From assembly GCA_017465565.1 (NCBI GenBank), contig JAFTWA010000012.1, positions 1 to 64,000 on the forward strand: DNA of 64,000 nt. Direction: 5' to 3'. Position 1 is the first letter of the stretch. Every line of letters starts with the position of its first letter. A model generated the notes under the pieces. The model searched no databases. It was not told where the DNA came from and was given only the letters and a program-made list of their open reading frames with translations. Below, piece by piece: positions 2,520-46,987 of the stretch. This DNA is from Tyzzerella sp. (GTDB lineage: Bacteria > Bacillota > Clostridia > Lachnospirales > Lachnospiraceae). The position numbers and the translations under genes are program-made.

Positions 2520-2894
2520 TTATCTTTTAATAGTCTTCACACCAAACGCAAAGTAAATAATGTGGAATGCCCATACACAGGCTAGAGCAATTCTGCCCAC
2601 AGGAACATTTTTCATCATAATAAAACCGATAGACATCAGTACTGTAACTGTTACCATAACACGAATTTTTGTTGGCCAGTTCATCCCTCTGCCTTGCACA
2701 TAGCTTTCAAGATTATTCTTATATAGTTTCGTATTTATAAACCAATTATGTAATTTTTCAGAACTTTTTGCAAAACATACTGTCGCAAGAAGCAAAAAAG
2801 GGAATGCTGGTAATAATGGAACGACAGCTCCCACTGCACCAAGTCCTACGCCAATACAGCCGAGGACAATATAAGCTATTTTCTTAATTTTCAT
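2520..2894 (-). CDS. DUF454 (YbaN-like) small membrane protein
   Basis: A 124-residue membrane protein with the DUF454/YbaN signature: a first helix ending in GVGLGAVGAVVPLLPAFPFL, the central SSEKLHNWFINTKLYKNNL segment, and two further helices near the C-terminus. The family has no established biochemical role. The start is placed at the ATG at 2894 because GGAG sits upstream; it overlaps the end of the preceding Cys-rich gene by 11 bases, so the two are translationally coupled. It is the last gene of the CydDC-like operon, and its co-transcription with a putative cytochrome is the best clue to its job. Confidence 0.8.
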   Translation of the reverse strand: MKIKKIAYIVLGCIGVGLGAVGAVVPLLPAFPFLLLATVCFAKSSEKLHNWFINTKLYKNNLESYVQGRGMNWPTKIRVMVTVTVLMSIGFIMMKNVPVGRIALACVWAFHIIYFAFGVKTIKR

Positions 2895-3234
2895 TTTCTT
2901 TCTCCAATCGTTTTTTCTCTTTTTTTGATTCAATCACATGACGAATTGCAGTTATCGGATGGGAAAATATCATTCTCGGTCCTGAAAAACACATAACTTT
3001 GCGGATTTTTTCTCTCATATCGGGTTTATAGCAATGAACCTTGCAGTTCGAACAAAACGTTTTTGTCTCCATAAAAGGGCATTTATCGCTTCGCATTCTT
3101 GCATAAGCATCAAGCTTGGCACATTCTTCACAAAGACCATTCCTGCCGCCATGCTGTTTCTTGCAATAAAGGGCTATCATCTGCGACACGAGTTCTTTTT
3201 CCTTTTCACGTTTAGTTTCTACACATTTCCCCAT
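2884..3234 (-). CDS. Nitrous oxide-stimulated promoter family Cys-rich protein
   Basis: A 116-residue soluble protein matching the small family called nitrous oxide-stimulated promoter. It is rich in cysteines: Cys and CEEC clusters in the first third, KCPFMETKTFCSNCKVHCYK in the middle, and CFSGPRMIF later. The spacing suggests an Fe-S or metal site, although the ligands are unproven. The ATG at 3234 is chosen over an in-frame TTG because GGAGG lies eight bases upstream. The start shares a TGATG overlap with the stop of the CydC-like gene, indicating translational coupling. Function is unknown. Confidence 0.75.
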   Translation of the reverse strand: MGKCVETKREKEKELVSQMIALYCKKQHGGRNGLCEECAKLDAYARMRSDKCPFMETKTFCSNCKVHCYKPDMREKIRKVMCFSGPRMIFSHPITAIRHVIESKKEKKRLEKENEN

Positions 3235-4892
3235 CAACTCATCCTCCCGTGTTCAACAGAGTAAACCTTATCTACAATACGCATTGTCGACTGACGATGC
3301 GACACAAGTACCACTGTTTTATTTTCTCTTTCTTCTTTTAAGGATTTCAAAATAACTGCTTCATTCAAACTGTCTAAATTGCTAGTCGGTTCATCCAAAA
3401 GCATGAATGGTGCATCATGAAGGAAGGCTCTGGCAAGACCAATTCTCTGTCTCTCACCACCGGAAAGTGTGTCTCCAAGTTCTCCTACAGGTGTATCATA
3501 GCCATTCGGAAGAGTCATAATGAAATCATGAATGGAGGCCTTTTTACAAGCCGCCACAATCTCTTCATCCGTTGCATTTAAGTTTGCAATGCGAAGGTTG
3601 TTTCGGATACTATCGTGGAATAAATGTGTTTCCTGGGTAACAAAGCTTTCCATATCGCGAAGATTTGCTGTATTAATCTCATCAACATTTACATTTGAAA
3701 GCTTTACACTTCCCTTTTGTACATTCCAAAAGCGCATCAAAAGCTTTAGCAATGTTGACTTTCCGCTCCCGCTTCTGCCCACAATACCAATAACAGAACT
3801 CTTTGGAATTGCCACAGACACGTTGTCAAGAATTGTCTCTTTCCCGTATGCAAAGATTACGTTTTTGATTGTTGCCCCATCAAAATCGATATCTTTTTTA
3901 CCCTTGATTTCTTCTACTACCGGCTTTTCCTCCAGAATGTCTAAAACACGATTTCCCGCAGCAAATGTATTTTGTAAAGTGCTTCCGAGATTAGCCAAGG
4001 CAACCACTGGACCAAAAGAACTCATAAGAGCAATCGTCGGAATCAGTACACCGGTAAATTCTACCTGGCCACTCTGATATAGCATTGCAGATACAAATAA
4101 CATTGCAAGGTCAAAAATCAAAATCACAGTATTCGTAACTGCCTGGTTTCGCCCTGCAGTACGTTTCATTCTTCTTTCATCTTCTGAAAGCGCATCCGTC
4201 TGCTCATTCATTTCCTTCAGTCTTTTCATTCCCTGACCGTATTGCAATGTTTCGCCAAGTCCCCGGAGACTGTCTAATACAAAACCTGAAAGGTCACCTG
4301 ATTTTGTACGGAATCTTATTCCGTCATCACCGCTGAATTTTGAAGTAAGCATCGGAATAATCACTCCGACAGTAAAATAAGCCACAAATGCAATCGTTCC
4401 AAGCAATACATTATGACGTCCTATAAATAGGCACATGATTGTCGAAAACAAGAACGCTATCGCAATTGGAGAGATGGTATGCGCATAAAATACTTCTAAC
4501 AATTCAATATCTGATGTGATGACCGATATCAAATTCCCTTTATCCTTCCCCTCCAACTTTGCAGGACAAAGCTTTCGCAATGCCTGAAACACTTTATCTC
4601 GAATAAGTGCCAGAAGTTTAAAAGCAATAAAATGATTACAGGCTTGCTCCGCATATCGAAGCACACCTCGAACAAGTGCAAAAACACATACCGAAACAAA
4701 TAACAGCGTTAAAGTAAATGGGGTAGAAATCCCAATCAATTCCGCTACCGCGTATCCACCAAATATGGTAATAAAAGACGCCGCAAGATGACCAATCAGT
4801 CCCATAATAATTGCCAGAACCATGAATCCTGCAAGCGGTTTCACAAGACCGATAAGTTTCATCATAACCGTAAATCCACTGCGTTTTCTCAT
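3234..4892 (-). CDS. cydC: CydC-like ABC transporter, fused permease and ATPase
   Basis: The 552-residue half-transporter has an N-terminal six-helix exporter domain (about residues 15-300) and a C-terminal ATPase with Walker A GRSGSGKST, signature LSGGERQR and Walker B FMLLDEPTSNLD. Order and length fit CydC, which with CydD forms a heterodimer. In E. coli that complex exports cysteine and glutathione, binds heme and is needed for cytochrome assembly. It overlaps the CydD-like stop codon by four bases. A heterodimeric exporter-fold importer of the YbtPQ/IrtAB kind is an alternative; the membrane-domain pattern of the partner favours CydDC. Confidence 0.78.
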   Translation of the reverse strand: MRKRSGFTVMMKLIGLVKPLAGFMVLAIIMGLIGHLAASFITIFGGYAVAELIGISTPFTLTLLFVSVCVFALVRGVLRYAEQACNHFIAFKLLALIRDKVFQALRKLCPAKLEGKDKGNLISVITSDIELLEVFYAHTISPIAIAFLFSTIMCLFIGRHNVLLGTIAFVAYFTVGVIIPMLTSKFSGDDGIRFRTKSGDLSGFVLDSLRGLGETLQYGQGMKRLKEMNEQTDALSEDERRMKRTAGRNQAVTNTVILIFDLAMLFVSAMLYQSGQVEFTGVLIPTIALMSSFGPVVALANLGSTLQNTFAAGNRVLDILEEKPVVEEIKGKKDIDFDGATIKNVIFAYGKETILDNVSVAIPKSSVIGIVGRSGSGKSTLLKLLMRFWNVQKGSVKLSNVNVDEINTANLRDMESFVTQETHLFHDSIRNNLRIANLNATDEEIVAACKKASIHDFIMTLPNGYDTPVGELGDTLSGGERQRIGLARAFLHDAPFMLLDEPTSNLDSLNEAVILKSLKEERENKTVVLVSHRQSTMRIVDKVYSVEHGRMS

Positions 4893-6628
4893 AGCTGCTC
4901 ACCGTCCTTTCCAAGGTTCTCAAGCGCTTGCTGTGCATTCCAAAGCTTCGCATATGTACCATCGTTGCCTAGCAGTTCTTTATGTGTTCCACTTTCTGCA
5001 ACCGCACCTTTATCCATTACATAAATTCGGTCAGACTTTGTAACATTCGCAAGGCGATGAGAAATCAGGATAACCGTCTTGCTTTTTGCAAGTGCATGTA
5101 TTTCACGCATGATGTCATTTTCACTTTCCACATCAATGTTAGAAGTCGCCTCATCAAAAATATAGACTGGACTGTCGTGAAGCAATGCTCTCGCTAAGGC
5201 AAGTCTCTGACATTGCCCGCCGGAAAGATTAGAAGCCTTTTCATGAAGCTTTGTTTCCAGCCCATTTTCACTTCTCAAAAATGCCGCAAGATTCACTCGC
5301 TCAAGCACTTCCCAAAGTTCGTTATCTGCAGCATTCGGATTTCCCATGAGCAGATTGTCTCTTACTGTTCCTTTGAACAAATAACTTTGGTGACTGATAT
5401 AAGTGAAGTTCTCCATTAAACTTGCTTCTGAAATTTCAGCCAATTCTTTATCTCCAACTTTTACAGAGCCGCTATATCCTTTGTTTCTCCCCATAAGTAT
5501 TGCTGAAACAGTAGATTTACCACAGCCACTCTCACCAACGATAGATGTGAAGCTACCCATTGGAAACGTCATGTTGATGCCATGTAAAATTTCACGGTCT
5601 TCTTTATAAGAGAAATGCAGATTATCGCAAACCATCGTACAATCCTTTGAAACTACTTCTGTTTTCTGCTCTGGTTCTGGCAAATCTAAAAACCGGAAGA
5701 TCTTATCACTCGCAGCCATACCATTCATTGCAATATGGAAAAAGGACCCTAAAAGCCGCATTGGAATAAAGAAATCTGCGGAAAGCAAAATAATCAATAA
5801 AGCGCCTGCAAGTGATACATTTCCCACTCTATATTGAGTTGCTGCCATAATCACACCAAGGGCTGCACCACCGTACGCAATCAAATCCATAATGGTAATA
5901 GAATTGAGCTGCATTGTTAACACCTTCATGGTAATCTTACGGAACTTCTCAGATTCTTCGTTCATTTCTTTATGTTTGAAATCGTCTGCCTGATAGATTT
6001 TCAAAGTGGTTAATCCTTGTAAATTTTCAAGAAAAGTATCTCCGAGAGCCGTATACTGTCCCCAATATTTTGACAACAGTTTTTTTGCCCATCTCTGCAC
6101 TGCCACTATAGACACCGGAATCAATGGTACACAAACAAGCAGTACAATGGCACTTGGGGAATTCACAAAACTCAAGAGAATAAAAAGCGTGAACGGTGCC
6201 AGCATCGCATAGAAAAACTGCGGAAGGTACGCTCCAAAATAGGTTTCCAGCTGGTCAACTCCTTCTACAGCAACCTGAACAATCTCCGAGGTTTTCACTT
6301 TTTCGTTATAAGCAGTACCAAGTCGTAAAAGTTTTTTGTAAATCATTTCTCGCAAAGTCTTTTTTACCGCTTTGGAAGAAAGATAACCCATTTTGCCTGC
6401 ACCTACTGTACACAGGAAGCGCACTATCACTGCCGCCAATGCAATACTGAGAGTTGTCATAATATCTTTTGTCTCAGCTGGCTGTTCAATCATTTTTGCT
6501 AAAAGTACTGTAATGCTGGACATCATGGAAATGTTGGCGACAAGAGAAATCCATTGCAATATTACGTTTCCTGCTATGTATTTTTTACTTTCGCTAACGG
6601 TTCCAATGAGCCGTTTGTTAATCATCAT
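4889..6628 (-). CDS. cydD: CydD-like ABC transporter, fused permease and ATPase
   Basis: The 579-residue protein carries a transmembrane exporter domain followed by an ATPase with Walker A GESGCGKST, signature LSGGQCQR and Walker B VYIFDEATSNID. Segments such as EGVDQLETYFGAYLPQFF, VCVPLIPVSIV and FIPMRLLGSFFHIAMNG align by eye with CydD rather than with generic multidrug exporters. It should pair with the product of the overlapping downstream gene. AGGAGGGG precedes the start, which has two adjacent ATGs. No cytochrome bd genes are seen nearby, so the transported species (thiol, heme or siderophore) is open. Confidence 0.78.
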   Translation of the reverse strand: MMINKRLIGTVSESKKYIAGNVILQWISLVANISMMSSITVLLAKMIEQPAETKDIMTTLSIALAAVIVRFLCTVGAGKMGYLSSKAVKKTLREMIYKKLLRLGTAYNEKVKTSEIVQVAVEGVDQLETYFGAYLPQFFYAMLAPFTLFILLSFVNSPSAIVLLVCVPLIPVSIVAVQRWAKKLLSKYWGQYTALGDTFLENLQGLTTLKIYQADDFKHKEMNEESEKFRKITMKVLTMQLNSITIMDLIAYGGAALGVIMAATQYRVGNVSLAGALLIILLSADFFIPMRLLGSFFHIAMNGMAASDKIFRFLDLPEPEQKTEVVSKDCTMVCDNLHFSYKEDREILHGINMTFPMGSFTSIVGESGCGKSTVSAILMGRNKGYSGSVKVGDKELAEISEASLMENFTYISHQSYLFKGTVRDNLLMGNPNAADNELWEVLERVNLAAFLRSENGLETKLHEKASNLSGGQCQRLALARALLHDSPVYIFDEATSNIDVESENDIMREIHALAKSKTVILISHRLANVTKSDRIYVMDKGAVAESGTHKELLGNDGTYAKLWNAQQALENLGKDGEQL

Positions 6629-6647
6629 ATATTTCCCCTCCTGTTCA

Positions 6648-6962
6648 TTAAGCCTTTTTCAATCGGCGATGATATATAAAAATGTGAATGGCAAGCGCAT
6701 ATACTGAGCCAATCGAAATCACCTTATGTAAAGCCAGAATCAAAGGTATTTCGTCAAATATCATGCCAAACAGACCGCTGAAAAATGCGAGAACTACAAG
6801 TCCCAGAAAAAGATAACTTCGACTTTTCAGTCGTTTACGATGGATAATTGTATGTACAATACAGAGTAATAAAAAAATAACTGATGCTAATTTGTGGATA
6901 TGGATTCCAGTTAACGGCACCAGATTGGTAATAATAAAGCTAATCAAAAGTAAATAATTCAT
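6648..6962 (-). CDS. Four-helix membrane protein, putative minimal diheme b-type cytochrome (DUF4405-like)
   Basis: The 104-residue protein has four predicted membrane helices (about 3-20, 23-41, 50-68 and 76-97). Histidines occur as His23/His37 in helix 2 and His79/His93 in helix 4, each pair separated by 13 residues. This is the same spacing and helix placement as the two bis-histidine hemes of cytochrome b. The overall look fits the DUF4405/cytochrome b561-like group. It is the first gene of the operon, 19 bp ahead of cydD. Heme binding is inferred from the pattern, not shown. Confidence 0.65.
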   Translation of the reverse strand: MNYLLLISFIITNLVPLTGIHIHKLASVIFLLLCIVHTIIHRKRLKSRSYLFLGLVVLAFFSGLFGMIFDEIPLILALHKVISIGSVYALAIHIFIYHRRLKKA

Positions 6963-6988
6963 TTCTGCGTTCTCCTTGTATAACTTTA

Positions 6989-7004
6989 GTTAGTCATTGC
7001 TAAC
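6989..7004 (-). promoter_or_regulatory. Palindromic operator candidate at the start of the CydDC-like operon
   Basis: GTTAG-TCATTG-CTAAC is an inverted repeat just downstream of the -10 box of the operon promoter, covering the expected transcription start. Similar TTAG/CTAA palindromes are bound by DtxR/MntR/IdeR-type metal regulators, so iron or manganese control is a reasonable inference. No regulator gene is adjacent. Confidence 0.45.
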
Positions 7005-7011
7005 CTTTGAA

Positions 7012-7040
7012 ATTATAAAAATAATTTATAACTTTGTCAA
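7012..7040 (-). promoter_or_regulatory. Consensus promoter of the cytochrome b-like/CydDC operon
   Basis: On the minus strand a perfect TTGACA (7035-7040) is followed after 17 bases by a perfect TATAAT (7012-7017). A full consensus promoter is expected to be very strong, which makes repression at the adjacent palindrome plausible. Confidence 0.8.
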
Positions 7041-7090
7041 GACTTATTTCGACCGGAATCAAAGAAGATTTTCCCAGGAAAAATAAAGTA

Positions 7091-7119
7091 TTGATTTTCA
7101 CTTTTCCATTGTTTATACT
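7091..7119 (+). promoter_or_regulatory. Promoter of the Cys-rich/surface-protein pair
   Basis: TTGATT (7091-7096) and TATACT (7114-7119) with a 17-base spacer lie 22 bp ahead of the ATG at 7142. The region between this and the opposing promoter at 7012-7040 is divergent, with no other gene. Confidence 0.65.
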
Positions 7120-7141
7120 GAATAAAAAGGAGAAATTTATC

Positions 7142-7483
7142 ATGATAGAACAATTATTAAAACAACCTGGTTTTATTTATGAAATAGAGGGAAGATATTA
7201 TTTCTTGGGAAAATGGATTTGCAAGGAATGTACTGACACCAATGCTAACGACTGTGCTTTCATGTACAACATGTGTCGTCGCAGCAAGGAAGAACCAGAT
7301 ACAAATATGTATTTCCAAAAAATTCGTGCATACTGTGATTTTGCCCTTGAAATTCCATATAACCCTGCAAAGATTCGCGAGGATTTATCATCTATTTTGG
7401 CAGGCTTATCTGAGACAGCCAGTAAATCCTTAGAAAAACAGATTCAAAATTTCTCAGAAGACCTTGAAAAATATTGTAATTAG
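7142..7483 (+). CDS. Cysteine-rich protein of unknown function
   Basis: A 113-residue soluble protein that I do not recognise. Residues 25-60 hold a cluster CKEC, DCAFMYNMC and, further on, AYCDF, suggestive of metal binding or disulfides. The C-terminal third is predicted helical and ends in Cys-Asn. The ATG at 7142 is chosen over a longer frame because AAGGAG precedes it by about nine bases and because a good promoter ends at 7119, inside the longer frame. It is followed 41 bp later by a sortase-anchored surface protein and probably shares its transcript. Confidence 0.6.
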   Translation: MIEQLLKQPGFIYEIEGRYYFLGKWICKECTDTNANDCAFMYNMCRRSKEEPDTNMYFQKIRAYCDFALEIPYNPAKIREDLSSILAGLSETASKSLEKQIQNFSEDLEKYCN

Positions 7484-7524
7484 AAACAATCAATAAAATG
7501 AAGAAAAGAAAGGAGAGATTCGAT

Positions 7525-8943
7525 ATGAAAAAATTATTTCGTATGATTCTTATTTTATGTTTTTTAGTTTCAGCAACTCTGATTGTATCAGCTGAGGATA
7601 CATCTTCTGTTAAATTAAATTTAGAAAATGGTGATATTGATATCACACCGACAGGCTATACACAAGGCGGCGGACAAGAGGTGGCTTTTACTGGTGATTA
7701 TGTAATCACTGGGTCACTTACTTATGATACACCACTTCAAATCGTGAATAATTCAGGCGAAGAAGCAACATTTGATATCACATTAAATAATGCTAAAATC
7801 GTCGGGGACATGGATTGCACTGCATTTCGTATTGATGGGAATAGCCCCGTTGTTCTGAATCTCACTATTGAAGGTGTATGCGAAATTAACGCAGACAATC
7901 ATTCAGCGATTAAAGTTGGTAATAATTCGTCTGTTACAGTCAATATAACAACCGCAGAGAATGCAAAACTTACATTAACAAGAAGAGATTCTGATGGTTC
8001 TAGACCTGAAGTTTATGATACTGATGGCAGGGGAAATCTTGATTTGCTCACCGTAAAAATTGATGATGTAATTCCATATAATTATAATAATAAACCATTT
8101 GTTACACATACTCACCAATTTGGAACATATGAACCAGATAATGGTACTGCTACCTGTAAAGAGGACGGAACAAAAAGCGCAACCTGTAGCGAATGTAACG
8201 GTCTCCACACTATCACCGATGAAGGCAGCAAGAAACATATTTTTGAAACAGGCGTCTGTCCTTTCTGCGGTCTCCACGGTGCAGACCTTCAACAAGAAGG
8301 TATTACCTGGCTCAAATATGAGATGAATGACTCAACAACATGGTTTGGAATTGATAACAGCAATGATGAATTTGAAGAAGGCAGTCATTTCTGGATTGAA
8401 TGGATAAATCCTGAAAATCAAACTTCTTATAATGCTTATTGGAATCAACTGGATACAAAGCATAAAGATAACATTGAAAATAATAACTATAAGTTATTCC
8501 AGATTGGTGTAACAAAAAAAGACGGAACGGAATATACAATTTTAGATGAAGGCAAGTCAGCATCGCTCTATGTTCAAACAGCAGATGATTGGGACAAAGA
8601 TGATCTAAAAGCTGCATACATTTCAAACGGTGCTGACGAAGATGTATTTCTGGAAGTTATCGATAACTTAGAATATACAGATGGCAAAGCACAATTTGCA
8701 AAGCTTACCTTAAAACATTTTTCACCATATATCATATATGACGAACTAACAGCAGATGAAGAAAAAACTGACACTTCAATCCTTCCAGAAGATGTTCCAA
8801 CTGGCGACTCTGGTAAAGGCGCTACAGGTGTTCCAAAAACAGGAGATACTTCTTCTCTCGTACTGATGGGTCTTTTCGGTATTTCTTGTGCAGTCATTGT
8901 TTATACAACCAAGCAATCTTTCAAAAGAACACACAGACAATAG
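7525..8943 (+). CDS. Sortase-anchored surface protein with VPKTG sorting signal
   Basis: The 472-residue protein has a Sec signal peptide ending near SAE, a beta-rich N-terminal region (about 35-180) resembling carbohydrate-binding or beta-helix domains, and a HTHQFGTYEPDNGTATCKED segment with paired Cys (CSEC, CPFC) at about 195-255. A further beta domain follows. At the C-terminus are VPKTGD, a hydrophobic helix and a basic tail KQSFKRTHRQ. VPKTG is a variant LPXTG motif for sortase attachment to peptidoglycan. The ATG at 7525 follows AAAGGAGAG. No sortase is in the window. Ligand unknown. Confidence 0.82.
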   Translation: MKKLFRMILILCFLVSATLIVSAEDTSSVKLNLENGDIDITPTGYTQGGGQEVAFTGDYVITGSLTYDTPLQIVNNSGEEATFDITLNNAKIVGDMDCTAFRIDGNSPVVLNLTIEGVCEINADNHSAIKVGNNSSVTVNITTAENAKLTLTRRDSDGSRPEVYDTDGRGNLDLLTVKIDDVIPYNYNNKPFVTHTHQFGTYEPDNGTATCKEDGTKSATCSECNGLHTITDEGSKKHIFETGVCPFCGLHGADLQQEGITWLKYEMNDSTTWFGIDNSNDEFEEGSHFWIEWINPENQTSYNAYWNQLDTKHKDNIENNNYKLFQIGVTKKDGTEYTILDEGKSASLYVQTADDWDKDDLKAAYISNGADEDVFLEVIDNLEYTDGKAQFAKLTLKHFSPYIIYDELTADEEKTDTSILPEDVPTGDSGKGATGVPKTGDTSSLVLMGLFGISCAVIVYTTKQSFKRTHRQ

Positions 8944-9026: not shown

Positions 9027-9473
9027 TTACTCTACTTCAACAACACCATTCTCTTTAATCGTAATTTTCATTCCATCCTTCACATATTTAAGGAACTCAT
9101 CGCCAAGAGAATCTACAACAGGCATTGTAACTCTATCCACCCAAACGTCAGCCAAAACTGCACCAGCTGCTGCGAGGGAATCAATATGATTTGCAAACAA
9201 CATACATGCAGGATTCTTTTCCAAAGCACACGCACAGTAAAGTACAAGTCCACCAGTTGTTGAACCGATTGTCTGAGGCAGACAAAGAGCTTTTCCAATA
9301 AGAGCTTTCCCGTGCAGTTCCTCATTGTTTTGGTCGCCACATTTTACTTCTTTATCCCCAAACTGCAATGCCATTTGAAGAGATGCCAATGTATTAAATC
9401 CTTGCGTAGTCACAACAGCCTCTGCTGTTACCTGACCAGGTGTAATTACTCTTCCCTGAAACTGTTTCATCAC
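9027..9473 (-). CDS. Aconitase X small subunit (swivel domain, DUF126)
   Basis: The 148-residue protein matches the DUF126/aconitase X swivelling domain: the GRVITPGQVTAEAVVTTQGF start, the IGKALCLPQTIGSTTGGLVL core that contributes an active-site loop, and a C-terminal beta domain. It overlaps the stop of the large-subunit gene, indicating stoichiometric synthesis. In separated bacterial AcnX enzymes the two subunits form one dehydratase. Characterised AcnX members dehydrate cis-3-hydroxyproline (bacteria) or mevalonate 5-phosphate (archaea). The substrate here is not known. Confidence 0.85.
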   Translation of the reverse strand: MMKQFQGRVITPGQVTAEAVVTTQGFNTLASLQMALQFGDKEVKCGDQNNEELHGKALIGKALCLPQTIGSTTGGLVLYCACALEKNPACMLFANHIDSLAAAGAVLADVWVDRVTMPVVDSLGDEFLKYVKDGMKITIKENGVVEVE

Positions 9474-10747
9474 TATTTACCTCCCTTCGTAATCGCGCTG
9501 AGTATCTCATCATCCGTATAATATCTTGCACTTGTGTATGTACGAAGTTTGTTAGACGAAGTGATGACTGGCATCGTCTTGCAAAGCGGATTGTTCATAT
9601 ACATAAGTGGGCAAATATAGGATGTAATAACACCAGTAGCCTTAAGTCGTGCGGCATACTCTGTCTTTTCAAAGGTTTCCAGTACACCTGGAGCTGCAGT
9701 AAGTACTGTAGGAATCACAACTTTCTTCTTTCCACTTTCTTTCAATCCCTTTTCAATCTTATCAGTCCAATCCTTAAGTTGCTCCATTGAAAGATGAGGG
9801 CATCCTACGAAGCAAAGCTTTGGAGCTGCATTCGGGTTCTTCCAGATAACTGGGTAACTCTTCTTTACCCGCTCTAATTCTGCGTCATCAATAATATATT
9901 CTTTTGCACCTTCAGCGATTAAGTTTTTGCCAAGTTCCACTGCTTCAGGAGTAAGATTCGCAATATGATAAAGTCCTACTGCACCATTAGACGCTGTTGC
10001 TGCGCCAAAGTCTTTCAGGTATGCTTTTGCAGAGTCGTTTAACTCGCTGCCAATCCACTTATCAAGTCCAATAACATAAGGAACGTCTTCCATGACCTTC
10101 ATACCGATTGCTGAGCCAAGAAGCTGTGCTTCTGGTTTCTTTGTTGTCTGTACTTTCACTACCCAAGTAGCTTTTCTGCCTTCGTCTGTAAGAAGTCCGA
10201 AATATGGAACATAACCCACAATAGAACCCATAATGTCAATGATACCTGAATTACGGTTACATCTTGCACCAAGCACGGAGTTGGCGTAAACTACTGCACT
10301 TGATTCTGCCCAAGAGAGCACGTCTCCCTTTTCCGGTACATTACCTACTTCATCCATATAACAGGTACAACTGAATGCATTCTTATCCATAAGACCAAGT
10401 TTTTCAAGCTGCTCCTCATAGAAGTCCTGTTTTGTGTACATAAATTTATTGAACACTAGGTTCTGCAAGAAATTGGCAGGTACATTTTTATCAATAGGAC
10501 GCGGGTCTACTGAAAATTTCTGTCCTGAAGCAACGCCTGCATCCAAAATCTGCTGCATGAGGTCGTACACTGGTGACATTACCTTAAGTCCAAATGATGT
10601 TACAAGATGATTGTATTTTGATGTAATTGGAACAAGCTTTTCTGCTTCAAATGCTTCTCCGTACATCACTAATGTTTTCATTACTTTTGCAAGTGTTTCC
10701 CCTTTTTCGCCATCGAGAATCGCTTGTTGTTCTTTTGTCAATAACAT
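9473..10747 (-). CDS. Aconitase X large (catalytic) subunit, DUF521
   Basis: The 424-residue protein is the catalytic part of an aconitase X dehydratase. It begins with the typical MLLTKEQQAILDGEKGETLAKVM, includes a VYANSVLGARCNRNSG segment equivalent to the cluster or substrate region of AcnX, and has LCFVGCPHLSMEQL near residue 305. Cysteines at the expected positions could hold an Fe-S cluster. It lies 21 bp downstream of the flavin reductase gene and overlaps the small subunit. A hydroxyproline dehydratase is a plausible role because bacterial homologues act on cis-3-hydroxy-L-proline, but that is inference. Confidence 0.85.
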   Translation of the reverse strand: MLLTKEQQAILDGEKGETLAKVMKTLVMYGEAFEAEKLVPITSKYNHLVTSFGLKVMSPVYDLMQQILDAGVASGQKFSVDPRPIDKNVPANFLQNLVFNKFMYTKQDFYEEQLEKLGLMDKNAFSCTCYMDEVGNVPEKGDVLSWAESSAVVYANSVLGARCNRNSGIIDIMGSIVGYVPYFGLLTDEGRKATWVVKVQTTKKPEAQLLGSAIGMKVMEDVPYVIGLDKWIGSELNDSAKAYLKDFGAATASNGAVGLYHIANLTPEAVELGKNLIAEGAKEYIIDDAELERVKKSYPVIWKNPNAAPKLCFVGCPHLSMEQLKDWTDKIEKGLKESGKKKVVIPTVLTAAPGVLETFEKTEYAARLKATGVITSYICPLMYMNNPLCKTMPVITSSNKLRTYTSARYYTDDEILSAITKGGK

Positions 10748-10768: not shown

Positions 10769-12829
10769 TTAGAGTTTCATACATACGTCCCATGCGCCCC
10801 AAATAACAGTTCTAAGGTTACCCACCTTAGAAGCGTCACCAATCACATGAATGTGACTTCCTTTTGGCGCAACAGGTGCTGGATTGTAACCAACTGACAG
10901 AATTACAGAATCGGCTGGGATTTCAAAAGTCTTTCCTTCCTTATCTTTCACTGTAACTGATTTTTCTCCAATTTCACACAAACCGGTTTCTAAGTGTACC
11001 GGAACCTTGTTTGTCTCGAAGAAATCACGGAGATAGCTTGTATTTGCAAGGCAGATTCCTTTTGTCGTAATAAGGTCGTCCTGCATTTCTACGATTGCTG
11101 GCTTTTTGCCCAAGAGGTAAAGTTCATATGCAATTTCACAGCCTGTGAGTCCGCCACCGATTACTACCACATGTTCGCCAACACTCTTCTTCCCAAGGAG
11201 ATAATCAACTGCTTCAATTGCAGTTTCCGCTCCCTTTACAGGAATTCTCTTTGCCACAGCACCTGTAGCAACGATAACTTCATCAGCATCAAGCGTTGTA
11301 ACGTCCTTGATTTCTGTGTTCATATTTACTTCAATTGGATATTTTGCAAGTTCACGGATATACCAGGCAATGAGTGCACGGTCCTTTTCTTTGAAAGAAG
11401 GTGCTGCAGCAGCGATAAATACGCCGCCAAGCTTGTCACTCTTTTCATAAAGACTTACCTTATGTCCGCGCTTTGCACAGACAATCGCTGCTTCCATTCC
11501 ACCGATACCGCCACCGATAATCGCAATCTTTTTCTCTTTCTTTGCAGGTTTAATATAATATTTCTTTGACTGCATTGTCTCAGGATTAAGCGCACAACGA
11601 GCAAGTCCCATGGTATCTGTCAGGTCCTGTGTATTTGCATGTCCTTTAGATGATGAGAAGTTGAAACAGCCACTATGACAGCAGATACAAGGTTTGATAT
11701 CGTCGATTCTATCCTCAATCATCTTCGTAATCCATTCAGGATCTGTAAGGAATTGACGCGCAATACCCACACCATCAATTTTACCTTCTGCAACGGCCTT
11801 TGCCCCTACCTCTGGATCCATTCTTCCTGCACAAACTACAGGAATGTCAACAAACTTTTTGATATGCGCAACATCATCCAGGTTACAGTTTTCAGGCATA
11901 TACATCGGTGGATGTGCCCAGTACCAAGAATCATATGTACCGTTATCTGCATTCAGCATATCGTATCCCATATCTTGAAGATACTTGGCAGCCTTTTCAG
12001 ATTCCTCCATGTTTCTTCCCACTTCCACATATTCTTCACCAGGCATCGCACCTTTACAGAATCCCTTCATCTTAGACTCTACTGAATAGCGAAGTGAAAC
12101 AGGGTAATCTTCTCCACATGCCTCTTTGATTGCCTTTACAACCTCTGCTGCAAAGCGATAACGGTTTTCAAAGCTGCCACCGTATTCGTCGGTACGTTTA
12201 TTAAAGAATTCCATTGAAAACTGGTCTAAGAGATACCCTTCATGCACAGCGTGAACTTCAACACCATCAACTCCCGCTTCCTTACAAAGCTTTGCAGTTT
12301 TCGCAAATGCTTCTATAATTTCATGAATCTGCTCCACTGTCATCTCAGGGCAGATAATATCATGCGCCCAGCGTGAAGGCTGTTCACTAGGGCTCGCAAG
12401 CTCATGAGAAGTATCAATCACTGGCTTTATGAGCGCTCTAGTAATTTTATTTTTATGAAGTGGAGCCACAAGCTCTGTGATAGCCCATGAACGGCCCATA
12501 CCAGCTGTTAACTGAATAAACAGCTTTGCACCTGTTTTATGAATCTCATCCATAAACTCTTTCAGTTCTTCAAACATTTTTGGATTTTGCCAAAGCCATT
12601 TTCCCCAGAAAGTATCACGCAGTGGCGCAATACCAGGGATGATAAGACCTACGTTGTTGTTTGCCCTTTCCAAGAAAAGCTTCGCTGCTTCCTTATCAAA
12701 ATGACAACCTCCAAGTTCAAACCATCCAAACAAGGATGTGCCGCCCATTGGACACATAACAATGCGGTTTTTAATCTCTACGTTGCCTACTTTCCATGGA
12801 GAAAATAATGATTCATATTTTTTGTCCAT
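10769..12829 (-). CDS. Old-Yellow-Enzyme/FAD reductase of the 2,4-dienoyl-CoA reductase family
   Basis: The 686-residue protein has an N-terminal FMN-binding TIM barrel (about 1-370), a [4Fe-4S] segment CICCHSGC with a fourth Cys after LAR, and C-terminal FAD and NAD(P) Rossmann folds (IIGGGIGGMEAA near 440, VIGGGLTGCEIAYEL near 560). This is the plan of 2,4-dienoyl-CoA reductase and trimethylamine dehydrogenase. It should reduce an activated double bond. The ATG at 12829 follows GAAAGGAAAA. Being first in an operon with aconitase X, it probably reduces the dehydration product or a related enoate or imine; the substrate is not visible. Confidence 0.82.
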   Translation of the reverse strand: MDKKYESLFSPWKVGNVEIKNRIVMCPMGGTSLFGWFELGGCHFDKEAAKLFLERANNNVGLIIPGIAPLRDTFWGKWLWQNPKMFEELKEFMDEIHKTGAKLFIQLTAGMGRSWAITELVAPLHKNKITRALIKPVIDTSHELASPSEQPSRWAHDIICPEMTVEQIHEIIEAFAKTAKLCKEAGVDGVEVHAVHEGYLLDQFSMEFFNKRTDEYGGSFENRYRFAAEVVKAIKEACGEDYPVSLRYSVESKMKGFCKGAMPGEEYVEVGRNMEESEKAAKYLQDMGYDMLNADNGTYDSWYWAHPPMYMPENCNLDDVAHIKKFVDIPVVCAGRMDPEVGAKAVAEGKIDGVGIARQFLTDPEWITKMIEDRIDDIKPCICCHSGCFNFSSSKGHANTQDLTDTMGLARCALNPETMQSKKYYIKPAKKEKKIAIIGGGIGGMEAAIVCAKRGHKVSLYEKSDKLGGVFIAAAAPSFKEKDRALIAWYIRELAKYPIEVNMNTEIKDVTTLDADEVIVATGAVAKRIPVKGAETAIEAVDYLLGKKSVGEHVVVIGGGLTGCEIAYELYLLGKKPAIVEMQDDLITTKGICLANTSYLRDFFETNKVPVHLETGLCEIGEKSVTVKDKEGKTFEIPADSVILSVGYNPAPVAPKGSHIHVIGDASKVGNLRTVIWGAWDVCMKL

Positions 12830-12855
12830 TTGTATTTTTCCTTTCATTTGTAATA

Positions 12856-41739: not shown

Positions 41740-44418
41740 TCACTTTGTATGGTTATAATAAACGATCATATCTCCACTGAGTTCTTCGAATCCTGGTGCG
41801 TAGGTACAAGCCCCATACCACTTATATCCCACATACTGTAGTTTTCCAACGAGCGGTGTTTTTCGGTAAGTATAATCCTGCAATTCAAAACCAAAGCCCT
41901 CATTCCATTTAACAGAAAGATTTTCTGTCTCAGACTTTTCTACTCCATTTTCATCTGCAATAAATCCTCTTATATTGGTGACATAAGTTTCATACTTTTC
42001 ATTTGTATTCTCAAACTTAATCCCCCAGCTATCCCGGGTTCCAACGTCGCCTGCAATCGTTTGCTCTTTCCAACTCTCATCATTACAATAACCTGCGCAC
42101 ACTACAATCCATGTTTCATCATTCGCATTGTAGAATATCATTGGCTCCATCATTTCTACACCACTCACATAAATGTCAGGATATTCTGAACCATATGTTT
42201 CAAATTTAAAGATTCCACACGACTCTAACTCTTCAAGCGCTACCCCCTCTTCTTCATACATCGAAAATGCATACGCTTCTATGAGACCGTCAATCTCTTC
42301 TTTGGAGTGCTGATTTGTCGCTTCATAGCTCAAATCTTTTTTCTCCTTGAAATCTATTTTTTCTTCTGATGCCATATATTCTGCTGATTGACTCTCTGCT
42401 TCAGAAACTTCTATGTATGCATCACTTTTCAGGAAAGTCTCTTCTGTTTCCATAGCAGTGAGTTCCTCTACCATTTCTCCATCCCAGTAAATTCTTACTT
42501 TGTAAGCTGCTGGATAACTCACTTCAAGGTCTGTAGGTTCAAAACTGGTTCCTCCACCCGAGCTAAGCTTATTATCTCCATTTGAATCAACGGAAGAACT
42601 TCCCCAGCTTTCACCAGTTGTACTGCTTCCCGAGCTATTTCCATCCAGCGAAACTTTGTCAAATTCCACTTCTTCATCAATAGAATCAACACGAATACTC
42701 TGCATTCCAAAGTTTTCCTTTGGAACATTTCCGTTCTCATCCTCTGTATAGGAATATTCTCGAAAATCCCATAAATGTGCATAAGCAAATTCAGCATCTA
42801 CTTTCACCGAATCATCAACTGATGTTCCACCAAAAAAACTATACTGGCTGTTCTGAATTGTATTATCAACATAATAATAAGAGCGCAGACCAATCTTTAC
42901 TGTCCCTGTTTCACCTGTTGCCATATATTGCTTCAGATATGGAACACCACTTCCAGGATAATTAGAATCTTCTAGAGAATGCAAGGCCTCAATTCTCTCG
43001 CCCCGCTCTTCCACTACCCATGCATCCTCATATTTAACTGCAACTGGTATAATAAGGCACGCACCGTCTGCCACAGTACAATACTCGCCATTTTCATTAT
43101 CAAATCCACTTACATTGAACGCCAGATAAGCTTCGTAGTAATCCTTCTGAATTTTCTCAAGATTATAGACTCTGTAATTATCTGGATATACAAGATAAGT
43201 AAATTCCGAACCTGGATTCAGATAACAGGTCTGGTTACCACTCTCATTATTTTTCAACATTTCCTCCGCCAAAATTTCGTGTTTCGTGAGCGAAGATGCA
43301 GTTGCAATATAGAGCCCATTTTCTAGCATTAATCCCTTCGCATAGGTATCCAGCGCACCAGCCACAGTCGTGCATCGATTCAGCCTCACCTTCGCCATCG
43401 CATATTCCAGTTCTTCCGCATTTGCAATCATATAGTCTTCTTTATCGTATGCATAAATATTTCCTTGCAGTGCTGGAAACAGTAAAACTATCCCAATGCA
43501 AACGGATACCAATGCCATCCCTTTTGGATATTTCTTAAACCTTACAATTGCCGCTATTCTTCTGGAAATATTCTTCCCTCCATTGGAAATAGAACTCGTT
43601 CCAGGTACTCTGGCATATTTCTCGTTTGCCATCTCAAGCAGAATTACACCATATGCTCTGCGCTCCTCTCCCTGCAAACGCTCTAATACACGCTGGTCAC
43701 ATAAGGATTCCATATCATTTTCTATACGGTTAAATACATATTGTAAAAATGGGTTACACCAGTGAAGGCTTCTCAAAACACACCATGCCAAACTCTGCAG
43801 TTCGTCATGATATTTCAAATGTAACAATTCATGAAGTATTACTTTTTCGTCCACATCCTTATCTGCCGGCAACGCTAAAACCGGCTTTATTCCGCCACAC
43901 ACAAAGGCGGACGACAATCCCTTTATCACAACTGCTTTACACGTCTTTAAACCGTATTTTTCACATACAAAATTTATTTTATTTTGCAGCTCGGTTACAG
44001 GTTCGCTCCCTTTATTCAGCAGTATCCGAAGTCTCATATAAGAAGTCAAATACCAGACCAAAGACACCAAAATTCCAATTGCATAGATTACAAAAAGCCA
44101 ATCCGTTATACTCTCTGGTTTTCCTTCCACGATTGGAACAATGTGCTGCATTCTGGCCGGAACATATACTTCTGAATAATTAGAAACCAACTGTTTCTCC
44201 ACATAGCCTTTTACTGCTTCCACCCACACAGGTATTGGCAACAGCAACGATTTTTGTAAAGAAACTGGTAACAGCATGCGGATTGCTAAGATACTCCAAA
44301 CACCATACTGCCACCGTGGCGAGAGTTTATCATCTAATAACGTCTTTATCAGCAAAAGCATTCCTGCAATCAATGTAACCGACAATGTTTGTATTAGAAA
44401 TCCCCAAATATTTGTCAT
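41740..44418 (-). CDS. BlaR1-like M56 family membrane metallopeptidase sensor, 892 residues
   Basis: The N-terminal third is an M56/BlaR1 membrane protease: four helices around the zinc motif VILHELLHLKYHDEL (about residue 192) and the downstream RIENDMESLCDQRVLE. A fourth or fifth helix near 300-318 leads to an extracellular domain of about 570 residues, which is not penicillin-binding-like. It ends TYAPGFEELSGDMIVYYNHT. BlaR1-type proteins sense a signal outside and trigger cleavage of a BlaI repressor. It overlaps the preceding membrane-protein gene by four bases. A shorter paralogue is encoded 1 kb upstream. Confidence 0.85.
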   Translation of the reverse strand: MTNIWGFLIQTLSVTLIAGMLLLIKTLLDDKLSPRWQYGVWSILAIRMLLPVSLQKSLLLPIPVWVEAVKGYVEKQLVSNYSEVYVPARMQHIVPIVEGKPESITDWLFVIYAIGILVSLVWYLTSYMRLRILLNKGSEPVTELQNKINFVCEKYGLKTCKAVVIKGLSSAFVCGGIKPVLALPADKDVDEKVILHELLHLKYHDELQSLAWCVLRSLHWCNPFLQYVFNRIENDMESLCDQRVLERLQGEERRAYGVILLEMANEKYARVPGTSSISNGGKNISRRIAAIVRFKKYPKGMALVSVCIGIVLLFPALQGNIYAYDKEDYMIANAEELEYAMAKVRLNRCTTVAGALDTYAKGLMLENGLYIATASSLTKHEILAEEMLKNNESGNQTCYLNPGSEFTYLVYPDNYRVYNLEKIQKDYYEAYLAFNVSGFDNENGEYCTVADGACLIIPVAVKYEDAWVVEERGERIEALHSLEDSNYPGSGVPYLKQYMATGETGTVKIGLRSYYYVDNTIQNSQYSFFGGTSVDDSVKVDAEFAYAHLWDFREYSYTEDENGNVPKENFGMQSIRVDSIDEEVEFDKVSLDGNSSGSSTTGESWGSSSVDSNGDNKLSSGGGTSFEPTDLEVSYPAAYKVRIYWDGEMVEELTAMETEETFLKSDAYIEVSEAESQSAEYMASEEKIDFKEKKDLSYEATNQHSKEEIDGLIEAYAFSMYEEEGVALEELESCGIFKFETYGSEYPDIYVSGVEMMEPMIFYNANDETWIVVCAGYCNDESWKEQTIAGDVGTRDSWGIKFENTNEKYETYVTNIRGFIADENGVEKSETENLSVKWNEGFGFELQDYTYRKTPLVGKLQYVGYKWYGACTYAPGFEELSGDMIVYYNHTK

Positions 44419-44990
44419 ACGACCACCTCATCTTGTGTTTCAGCCTCTATATGTTCTAACTTTGTCTGCAATTCATTCTTAAATGAAAATAATACCTTAC
44501 AAATCCATATTGTCACAACAAAGAAAATGATTAACAATGCGTATATCACGAAATTTTCTATTTCCAGACTTGTAATGATTGCGAAAAACGTAGTCAAAAT
44601 CGTCTTCACTGTCCGCAAATTCAATAGCATCTTTTCCTGCGGGCACTCATACTTGTGTGCTATGCCCGCAAGATTAGTAAGCAGTTGAAAATGGAAATAC
44701 AGGGAAATCGCGCTCGCAATGATACTAACAGCTCCTAAATTGAAATAGCTGTTTAAAAATCCTTTATTCATCCACGAAACCATCTCTATGGCTGTTAAGA
44801 TAGTGCCTAGCGGTTTCAAAAGCTTTGCCGATTCTTCTTCTTCCCCAATAGCCGAAAGTGCAGATATAAACAAAAGATAACCTGCCCAGTTTGGTAAAAT
44901 GTCCAAGGTATTCAAGTTAAAGTCCAGATGTAATAATATGTATCCCCAGGCTATTTTTGAAATTGCCTTACATAGCTCTCTTGGTTTCAT
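44415..44990 (-). CDS. Polytopic membrane protein of unknown function
   Basis: A 191-residue protein with about five membrane helices (near 10-30, 35-50, 75-100, 125-145 and 148-168) and a charged C-terminal tail ending EAETQDEVVV. I do not recognise the family. It is sandwiched by overlapping start and stop codons between the two M56 sensor genes, so it is translated with them and probably belongs to the same sensing complex. No conserved catalytic motif is visible. Confidence 0.65.
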   Translation of the reverse strand: MKPRELCKAISKIAWGYILLHLDFNLNTLDILPNWAGYLLFISALSAIGEEEESAKLLKPLGTILTAIEMVSWMNKGFLNSYFNLGAVSIIASAISLYFHFQLLTNLAGIAHKYECPQEKMLLNLRTVKTILTTFFAIITSLEIENFVIYALLIIFFVVTIWICKVLFSFKNELQTKLEHIEAETQDEVVV

Positions 44991-46987
44991 TTTGCATACA
45001 CCTCCTCAAGTAATAATTCTTCCACGACCTCTCCATCCCAGTAAATCTGTGCTTTATATGCCACAGGAAGTCCTTCCAATATTTTGTCAAAATACAAATC
45101 TCCAGTTTCACTCAGGCCATTCAAGGTATTCTCTTCATTATTTGCGGCTTTCATTATCCAAGTAAATCCTTCCGAATCATGCCCTACTCCGCTTAAGTTC
45201 TTCCAATCCCGAAAATCAACTTTCTCATCCAAAGAACTCATCTCTGCAATCTGGATACCGACATATTCTTCTGGCGAATTTCCTTCTGCATCAGCAGTGT
45301 AGGTATATTCAACTTCATATTGTGGCCTCTCATCTTCAAATTCAGCATCCAAATCAAGACTGTCACCTAAATTGCTTGAGCGGGCACTTGCCCTGAATTT
45401 TCCAATGTGATGCTCCGTCTGTACTTTAATCTTTATTGTTCCTCTCTCTCCAGTTGCTGCAAACTCAGCCTTTTCCGGTATCAAATCGGTATATTCATAC
45501 AATGACAAACTCTCACTAAAGGTTAACACAATGCGTTCGCCCTTCTCTTCCACAATCCATCCATCTTCGTACCAGACTGACACAGGAACTAACACGTATC
45601 CTCCACGAGATGGATCTTCTTCCATTTCTGTCGGCCACGGAGTACCATCTTCTTTTAACAGACTATAGATGCTGAATCTCAGATACGCAAGATAACTTCC
45701 ATCTTCGCATTTTCTTATATTATAAATTCCGTATCCAGCCCCATCTGTCAAATATTCTAATTCTGCTCCGCTATATAAATAATTTGCTCTCCATCCATCC
45801 TCTTCTGCGTACTGACGCATGGTTGCTTCCAATTCATCATGCTTATCATATGGGGATGCAATCGCGATATAAAGTCCATTTTCGTATGCAAGCCCTTTAG
45901 CATAAGTATCCAACGCTCCTGCCATTGTGCTGCATCTATCTAGTCTCGCATATGCCATTGATTCATCAAGTTCATAAAGTGGTCCTGGATGGTAAGGATT
46001 CCAATATGCACTATATTCTCTGCGTCCTGAGCCAAACAGCGCGAAAACCATGATTATAATCACACAACAAACGGAAACAAGTGCCATACCTTCTGGATAC
46101 TTTTTAAATCGCACAATAGAAGTAATTCTTCTAGTGATATTTTTTCCACCATTAGAAATCGAGCTTGTTCCTGGAACTCTGGCATACTTTTCATTTGCCA
46201 TATCCAGTAGAATAATGCCATAATCACGGCGTTCTCCTCCTTCTAACCGCTCCAGCACTCTTTGGTCGCACAGCGCTTCCATATCGTTTTCAATACGGTA
46301 AAACACATACTGTAACAAAGGATTGCACCAGTGAAGACATCTCAACATGCACCAACCTGCACTTTGCAGTTCATCATGGTATTTCAGATGCAATAACTCA
46401 TGCAAAATCACTTTTTCATCCACTTCTCTATCAGCAGGCAAAACTAATGTAGGCTGCAAACCACCGCACACAAAAGCTGATGGTAAACCGTCAATCATAA
46501 TCGTCTTACATGTCTTTAATTCATATTTTTCACAGACATTTTGTATTTTTATTTTGAGTTCATCTGAAATCGATGTCCCACGGCGGAGTACCCTTCTCAA
46601 CTTCAAATAAGAAATTAAGTACCACAAAACCGAGATTACCATCCCGACTATGTAAACCACAAAAATCCAATCTGTAACACTGCTTGGTGTACCAGCCATA
46701 ATAGGTATAATGTGCTTCACCTTCGCCGGCACATATATTTCGGTAAATGCCGAAGTCAACTGCTTTTCTACCATTGCTTTTGCCATTTCCAACCATACTG
46801 GAATCGGCAATACAATATGGCGGGTAATATTTACAGGAAGCAAAATTCTCGCTGCCAGGACTGCCCATACTCCATATTGCCAGCGCGGCGAAAGCTTATC
46901 CTGCAGCATCCATTTTACAAATAAAATGCAGACTGCTATAAGCGTGACTGAAAGTGTCTGATTCAAAAAGCTCCAAATATTAGTCAT
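44987..46987 (-). CDS. BlaR1-like M56 family membrane metallopeptidase sensor, 666 residues
   Basis: A paralogue of the 892-residue protein with a nearly identical N-terminal half: the zinc motif VILHELLHLKYHDEL near 195, RIENDMEALCDQRVLERLEG and then SSISNGGKNITRRI. The extracellular part (about 315-666) is shorter and more divergent and ends KAQIYWDGEVVEELL. Similar AQIYWDG/VRIYWDGE segments in both show that the sensor domains also duplicated. It follows the BlaI-type repressor gene by three bases. Confidence 0.85.
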   Translation of the reverse strand: MTNIWSFLNQTLSVTLIAVCILFVKWMLQDKLSPRWQYGVWAVLAARILLPVNITRHIVLPIPVWLEMAKAMVEKQLTSAFTEIYVPAKVKHIIPIMAGTPSSVTDWIFVVYIVGMVISVLWYLISYLKLRRVLRRGTSISDELKIKIQNVCEKYELKTCKTIMIDGLPSAFVCGGLQPTLVLPADREVDEKVILHELLHLKYHDELQSAGWCMLRCLHWCNPLLQYVFYRIENDMEALCDQRVLERLEGGERRDYGIILLDMANEKYARVPGTSSISNGGKNITRRITSIVRFKKYPEGMALVSVCCVIIIMVFALFGSGRREYSAYWNPYHPGPLYELDESMAYARLDRCSTMAGALDTYAKGLAYENGLYIAIASPYDKHDELEATMRQYAEEDGWRANYLYSGAELEYLTDGAGYGIYNIRKCEDGSYLAYLRFSIYSLLKEDGTPWPTEMEEDPSRGGYVLVPVSVWYEDGWIVEEKGERIVLTFSESLSLYEYTDLIPEKAEFAATGERGTIKIKVQTEHHIGKFRASARSSNLGDSLDLDAEFEDERPQYEVEYTYTADAEGNSPEEYVGIQIAEMSSLDEKVDFRDWKNLSGVGHDSEGFTWIMKAANNEENTLNGLSETGDLYFDKILEGLPVAYKAQIYWDGEVVEELLLEEVYAK

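Follow-up and report, generated by a model that had tools for sequence, protein, structure and literature searches.

The locus described here raises the question of what a CydDC-like ATP-binding cassette (ABC) transporter carries, and in which direction, when its genes share an operon with those of a YgbA_NO family protein and a DUF454 membrane protein. It lies on the minus strand of a 64,000-nucleotide stretch, hereafter the window, of contig JAFTWA010000012.1 from the metagenome-assembled genome (MAG) of a Tyzzerella sp. (GCA_017465565.1), which is 88.6% complete, a limit carried by every absence from this genome reported below. The substrate of CydDC itself is disputed, thiols and heme both having been proposed, and both namings are visible among the names of the NCBIfam models. 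The product of the operon is probably a CydDC-type ABC transporter that moves heme and has been re-used for iron or heme acquisition as part of an iron-starvation regulon. Computation revealed a recurring gene unit, a palindrome, conserved heme ligands, a separate clade and, in part of the relatives, heme and iron neighbours, and from these we infer the substrate, the direction of transport and the roles of YgbA, DUF454 and a small cytochrome-like protein.

The ORF (open reading frame) list of the window confirmed five minus-strand ORFs within 7040-2520, with a promoter and a palindrome in front of them:

7040-7012, minus strand: sigma-70 promoter TTGACA-N17-TATAAT, 12/12 match
6989-7004, no strand assigned: operator-like palindrome GTTAG-N6-CTAAC, covering the position where transcription is expected to start
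6962-6648, minus strand: small membrane protein ORF, 104 amino acids (aa), four-helix, putative minimal diheme b-type cytochrome (H23/H37 and H79/H93)
6628-4889, minus strand: CydD-like ABC subunit (permease and ATPase), 579 aa, axial heme ligand H298 (E. coli H312)
4892-3234, minus strand: CydC-like ABC subunit, 552 aa, axial heme ligand H87 (E. coli H85), with Q83 and H138 where E. coli has R81 and R136
3237-2884, minus strand: YgbA_NO family protein, 117 aa, seven invariant Cys in 52 aligned rows
2933-2520, minus strand: DUF454 (YbaN) membrane protein, 137 aa, Pfam match

A preliminary description of the window had given five minus-strand genes with overlapping or near-touching ends, and this was borne out by the ORF coordinates and by overlaps of 4 nt between cydD and cydC and between cydC and ygbA; 19 nt separate the small membrane protein gene from cydD. 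From the sequence, the more likely start of ygbA is the ATG at 3234, in a TGATG shared with the cydC stop, and that of DUF454 is more likely the ATG at 2894, within the 3' end of ygbA. The operon is taken to end at DUF454, because the next gene downstream, degV (2446-1589), has a promoter-like site of its own (2509-2481, 10/12).

Heme ligands of the ABC pair and its relation to CydDC

In the cryogenic electron microscopy structures of Escherichia coli CydDC, heme is reported to be held between CydC H85 and CydD H312 (PMC10374445, PMC10691846), with its propionates near CydC R81 and R136 and a contact to R77 in simulations (PMC10374445). Using the numbering of the E. coli record, these positions were followed in two kinds of sample. 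The first was anchored on ygbA and came from a scan of one genome per species, in which the best 80 of 292 relatives were retained, so that it favours close relatives; the second consisted of even draws of the class, one of 196 genomes and one of 391, the ABC-pair family being defined in the latter as matches to the window CydC with E values up to 1e-90. Among the complete, stop-free rows of the first sample (59 CydC rows, from 58 loci and the window, and 58 CydD rows), H85, R77, Gln81 and His136 were each present in 59/59 CydC rows and H312 in 58/58 CydD rows. In the even draw, H85 was found in 29/30, Q81 in 29/30 and H136 in 30/30 CydC rows, and H312 was His at all 34 places at which cydD is present, the window included. 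The same combination of Gln81, His85 and His136 (Q/H/H) occurs in L210 and L211, while the more distant L212-L214 retain H85 and H136 and not Q81. Homologues with the Q/H/H pocket are also present in Listeria, Lachnospira eligens and Fusobacterium records, and the clade is thus wider than Clostridia.

Canonical CydC (L169-L190) carries R81 and H85 in 22/22 rows, with Arg at position 136 in 20 and Lys in two, and canonical CydD carries H312 in 24/24. The CydC rows come from the 26 places over the CydC cut-off: 22 canonical ones were compared, L191 is a family member, and no locus was available for the other three. Only changes in CydC separate the family from the canonical proteins, and H136 is not exclusive to it, being carried also by an ABC row outside both groups (L196). 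Loss of an inner-leaflet heme-loading patch in CydD, where R192, R210, Y311 and K314 differ from E. coli, was considered and rejected, since these positions vary in the 24 canonical CydD rows. In a tree from which L180, L194, L120 and L192 were left out as over-long, partial or duplicate, the family CydC (42 rows) and canonical CydC (24 rows) each form one clade at 100/100.

The window pair thus shares with E. coli CydDC the heterodimeric ABC architecture with fused permease and ATPase (ABC_membrane and ABC_tran are both present in each subunit by Pfam) and both axial heme histidines, and it is predicted from these residues to work like CydDC at the heme clamp. It differs from E. coli CydDC in the replacement of CydC R81 by Gln and R136 by His, in its separate clade, in the apparent lack of cydAB in its own genome, and in the setting of its genes, which share an operon with those of YgbA and DUF454 downstream of an iron-regulon-like palindrome. 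The MAG yielded no cydA, which agrees with the earlier remark that cytochrome bd genes are missing; this remark says little, and the absence of cydAB was rejected as informative, since cydA occurs in only 1/391 class genomes, there together with canonical CydDC.

The older assignment of CydDC would make the pair an exporter of a thiol (cysteine or glutathione) that reduces ferric iron outside the cell for FeoB. Thiol reductant ABC exporter is still the name that the NCBIfam models carry, and FeoA and FeoB are near some loci, but such an exporter would not explain the invariant histidine ligands, and the effect of glutathione on the CydDC ATPase is reported to be non-stimulatory (PMC10374445). 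We consider it highly improbable, and the thiol export suggested in the preliminary description found no support in this analysis.

Recurrence of the gene unit and its partners

In the ygbA-anchored sample, cydC stands directly before ygbA in 69/80 loci, and DUF454 comes next in 62 of those 69, a gene order that indicates linkage beyond chance; one locus (L065) has the order ygbA-cydD-cydC-DUF454. A four-gene core of CydD-like, CydC-like, YgbA and DUF454 genes recurs in Clostridia; Acetatifactor muris (L017), a harmless commensal available in culture, is one of the species that have the unit. The five-gene order put forward at first does not recur and was rejected as a unit: the cytochrome-like gene is present in six of the 80 loci, always after DUF454 and not first.

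The even draw, with flanks of about 5 kb per side where the contig allowed, contained the CydC family at 35 places in 34/391 genomes and 26 genera. The family cydC is adjoined by cydD at 34/35 places, the exception being L203, where the contig begins 280 nt before cydC. The partners at the 35 places are DUF454 (23), YgbA (12), IsdE or Shp (10) and FecCD (9), and the cytochrome-like gene is found at one, the window. YgbA occurs at 28 places in 26/391 genomes; within 1.5 kb of it, cydC adjoins in 11 and lies beyond DUF454 in one more, and DUF454 adjoins it on either side at 12/28. What stays constant is the ABC pair, most often joined by DUF454; YgbA is a frequent partner and the cytochrome a rare one. 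Against the preliminary description, YgbA accompanies the pair at only 12/35 places of the even draw. No relative was found in the viral collection.

The neighbour families, which were checked on examples, include a DtxR-family regulator (PF01325, PF02742), FecCD, Shp/NEAT, FeoA, FeoB, DUF3793 and flavodoxin, and in L030 an IsdE neighbour exceeds its cut-off. IsdE or Shp lies within about 5 kb of the pair at 10/35 even-draw places and in 7 of the 26 genera, these rows not being independent (three are from one genus and two from another), and not at the window locus; at L209 IsdE is matched weakly (33%). For comparison, an IsdE gene that near would be expected by chance at roughly 0.2 of 35 places, as estimated for a 2.5-Mb genome with one IsdE locus. 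In L159 the genes shp-isdE-fecCD-ATPase-cydD-cydC-DUF454 are contiguous and co-directional. The most telling case is genome G169, which holds two pocket types: canonical cydA-cydB-cydD-cydC (L119) and, on another contig, a family pair some kb from NEAT, Shp and IsdE genes (L161). Together with the retained axial ligands and the histidine spacing of the small protein described below, the IsdE and Shp neighbours support the heme handling that the preliminary description had suggested.

A similar order is known in Streptococcus pyogenes, for which a table headed by the MtsR regulon lists siaD and siaE after siaABC and gives both as putative ABC transporters (PMC6593403). The sia locus (shr-shp-siaABC-siaD-siaE-siaFGH) and L159 are alike in having two putative ABC genes after Shp and an importer (SiaABC in the sia locus); the likeness is one of gene order, and sia has energy-coupling factor (ECF) genes and not YgbA or DUF454.

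Exporter-fold ABC transporters can act as importers, as in YbtPQ and IrtAB, and the pair could likewise import another iron compound, such as a ferric siderophore or another metallophore. This explanation would account for the iron-regulon-like operator and for the FeoA/FeoB and FecCD neighbours at part of the loci. However, both axial heme ligands are kept though other pocket positions have changed, and the substrate-specific neighbours that were identified are the heme proteins IsdE, Shp and NEAT (siderophore synthesis genes were not searched); it seems to us unlikely.

As a separate observation, a Listeria homologue of the pair (L218, 4281-7989, Q/H/H) adjoins a gene annotated as antibiotic biosynthesis monooxygenase, a label often given to IsdG-type heme-degrading enzymes; this gene had no NCBIfam match.

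Both partner proteins of the core are clear family members, YgbA_NO (PF11756) scoring 160.3 bits against a cut-off of 25 and DUF454 (PF04304) 122.9 bits against 35.1. In YgbA, seven Cys are invariant in 52 rows (51 of 77 clean sequences and the window), and E. coli YgbA, with 40% identity, has four of the seven (C53, C62, C65 and C69) as well as H68, a pattern that likely marks a metal or Fe–S site in a probably cytosolic protein. Against PDB sequences, YgbA gave two chance-level matches only. E. coli YbaN has 32% identity to the window DUF454. In E. coli the genes for YgbA and YbaN are far apart and not beside cydDC, and ygbA is under NsrR control, whereas a different palindrome is found here. 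Salmonella ygbA was reported to be raised in an nsrR mutant, its function being given as not known in 2007 (PMC2884951), and a search of the open PMC literature for the nitrous oxide-stimulated promoter name returned nothing related. DUF454 is reported to be up-regulated under iron restriction in Avibacterium (PMC7970244) and to co-occur with genes of the type XI secretion system (T11SS), which are likewise found next to haem oxygenase and TonB domains (PMC12282271).

The 104-aa protein matched no Pfam or NCBIfam family over cut-off and no PDB sequence. In the alignment of six of the seven known copies (L027 was left out, as its span held a stop), H21, H23, H37, H79, H93 and H98 are kept. Four hydrophobic segments were found, with H23/H37 in segment 2 (22-40) and H79/H93 in segment 4 (74-92), each pair 14 residues apart; H93 lies one residue past the peak window of segment 4. 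Two His pairs spaced by 14 are the pattern of diheme cytochromes b. Cytochrome b of bc complexes likewise has four hydrophobic segments with 14-spaced His pairs on segments 2 and 4, whereas the present protein has 104 aa only and the family and PDB searches gave it no match; it is putatively a minimal diheme b-type cytochrome. When 196 class genomes were searched for it, one match was strong and two were weak, and the gene is a rare add-on to the four-gene core.

The palindrome as a candidate iron operator

When every 5-mer dyad was counted at each gap from 0 to 8, GTTAG-N6-CTAAC proved by far the commonest upstream of cydD, in 31/58 regions (57 relatives and the window) compared with at most 3 in 20 shuffles; ranks 2-5 were shifts of the same dyad. 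Over the 80 loci (1.05 Mb), 113 exact copies were counted, compared with 3 and 0 for two permuted control dyads. The palindrome precedes cydD, lone ygbA, FeoA, FeoB, DUF3793, flavodoxin, FecCD and DtxR-family genes as well as some other ABC pairs, and in L008 it stands ahead of an ORF of no identified family that leads into IsdE and FecCD. A ygbA without cydC often has it just upstream (L054, L056, L057 and L059). At least two copies look like chance coding matches, one inside Shp (L030) and one in a like stretch (L006).

The palindrome is also positioned in a regular manner with respect to promoters. Although the promoter scan found no excess in total (18 sites compared with 17.9 in shuffles), the site at 7040-7012 fits 12/12. 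In 32 loci, counting the window, 47 palindromes stand no more than 400 nt upstream of cydD. A promoter scoring 9/12 or better is near or overlaps 26 of them, and for 21 of these its -10 box begins 10-17 nt ahead of the palindrome, compared with a mean of 5.0 and a maximum of 10 in 200 shuffled-flank sets. An operator for a repressor that covers the transcription start would be placed in this way.

The Tyzzerella genome has four further exact palindromes, each at most 60 nt from the start of an ORF. One is between a divergent DtxR-family gene (L083, 2129-2518) and DUF3793-flavodoxin. Another is at a CobW GTPase rich in His, another at a protein resembling ArsP_2 metal exporters, and the last at a 207-aa ORF of no family before an ABC permease. 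Flavodoxin is a marker of iron starvation, and we read the palindrome as a candidate operator of an iron regulon. An operator common to DtxR, Feo and flavodoxin genes, the mark of a DtxR regulon, was found in the ygbA-anchored loci and in the own genome and is rare in the even draw; the repressor would be a DtxR-family protein and the metal iron. The link to iron made in the preliminary description is thus supported by the palindromes before Feo, DtxR-family and DUF3793-flavodoxin genes. Our searches of the open PMC literature did not turn up GTTAG-N6-CTAAC by name, and we propose it as a candidate iron operator of some gut anaerobes.

Several palindromes stand before genes of separate interest. 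In the Tyzzerella genome, the CobW-type GTPase (L084, 848-1969, minus strand) has a long His/Cys-rich insert and lies 30 nt behind its exact palindrome, and the 207-aa ORF without a Pfam family that is followed by an ABC permease (L085, 1948-3406), possibly a metal-linked transporter, has its palindrome 56 nt ahead. DUF3793 and flavodoxin occur together behind the palindrome in L025, L045, L058 and L083; no paper linking the two was found in the open PMC literature.

Direction of transport and significance

When iron is short, a DtxR-family iron-sensing repressor bound to GTTAG-N6-CTAAC over the transcription start would be released. The CydD/CydC-like heterodimer would then clamp heme between CydC H87 and CydD H298 in a side pocket and move it across the membrane at the expense of ATP. 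The preferred direction is inward, by import or by transfer from a heme relay outside the cell. DUF454 would be a small membrane partner of the transporter, YgbA may handle the delivered iron or heme, and the diheme cytochrome b of this genome could pass electrons across the membrane and keep the heme iron reduced.

Import is more likely than export, since the operon includes a cytochrome that probably needs heme while no heme synthesis was found in the genome, which points to heme from outside. Export is the main rival: the pair would load outward-facing heme proteins, for example the diheme cytochrome, or shed excess heme acquired under iron starvation, the direction being as in E. coli, where CydDC, the closest characterised relative, is reported to move heme outward for cytochrome bd assembly (PMC10374445, PMC13337084). 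The two retained axial ligands speak for export too, as does the seemingly complete set of ATPase motifs (Walker A, signature, Walker B and H-loop) in each window subunit. However, no ferrochelatase was found in the MAG and no AhbD over cut-off, so that no own heme to export was found. The palindrome, read as iron-repressed, stands ahead of Feo, flavodoxin and DtxR-family genes, a setting more in keeping with acquisition than with detoxification, and cydA is present in just 1/391 class genomes. Export is, in our judgement, rather improbable.

Besides the outward transport described for E. coli CydDC, several findings weigh against heme acquisition by a CydDC-like pair in an iron regulon. The best NCBIfam models for the pair are CydD TIGR02857 (401.8 bits, cut-off 435) and CydC TIGR02868 (325.9 bits, cut-off 329.05), and both subunits narrowly miss the curated cut-offs; a family member in genome G035 (L191) clears that for CydC with 333.4 bits. 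Because of these narrow misses, and because the Arg pair, the canonical clade and the association with cydAB are lacking, the pair was not filed as CydDC. At the pocket, R77 is Arg in only 23/30 even-draw rows compared with 59/59 among the close relatives, and L140, which was counted, has lost H85 and also Q81. CydD and generic ABC rows lie between family and canonical CydC in the tree, the deep order of which was not read because of long branches.

The genomic context is also uneven. At least one of DtxR, FeoA, FeoB, FecCD, DUF3793, IsdE and Shp is present in only 24/80 loci and in 11/40 longer than 14 kb. With the marker set used and the flanks of about 5 kb, 7/35 family places show none of the markers; an ABC pair alone among unrelated neighbours, which the preliminary description had named as an outcome that would count against it, fits these seven. 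The exact palindrome precedes cydD (in the window, the cytochrome gene) at only 6/35 even-draw places, and a DtxR-family gene at one further place (L214), so that operator control is not common to the whole ABC family. The own genome has 5 exact palindromes compared with 8 reversed-control sites, and the site count alone thus proves nothing. Iron regulation in Clostridioides difficile is described through Fur in the relevant part of PMC6311696, which does not name DtxR. Finally, no IsdE over cut-off was found in the own genome (best 88.6 compared with 298.65 bits), and a NEAT search of it was silent, as were its controls, so that it is not usable; no heme source was thus found there.

Other features of the window were noted in passing. 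On the plus strand upstream of the operon, a 149-aa ORF without a family (7034-7483) precedes an ORF (7498-8943) with a C-terminal sortase-type signal by weak, sub-cut-off NCBIfam matches. The minus-strand stretches 9027-10747 and 10769-12847 together hold ORFs of 148 aa and 424 aa that presumably resemble the small and large subunits of aconitase X and, directly before them, a 692-aa ORF which we take to be an old-yellow-enzyme-type oxidoreductase, possibly as a catabolic unit. Two membrane proteins that we assume to be BlaR1/M56-like (41740-44418 and 44987-46987, minus strand) have similar N-terminal halves and differing long C-terminal parts, with a small membrane protein gene between them.

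In conclusion, this analysis describes an operon and a palindrome of which our searches of the open PMC literature found no description. More tentatively, the clade with Gln81/His136 and His85/His312 might be an iron-starvation-induced heme importer of anaerobes that mostly lack cytochrome bd, with YgbA as its cytosolic heme or iron handler and the palindrome as the iron operator in part of Clostridia; if this is true, the widespread YgbA family would gain a physiological role. The variant occurs in organisms of which most are without the oxidase, in part next to heme-uptake genes, and yet retains the heme ligands, which is an independent argument for heme as the substrate of CydDC; it also lets two pocket types be compared readily, even inside one genome (G169). 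For YgbA and DUF454, two widespread families of no known function, a role in the handling of iron and heme becomes a testable proposal.

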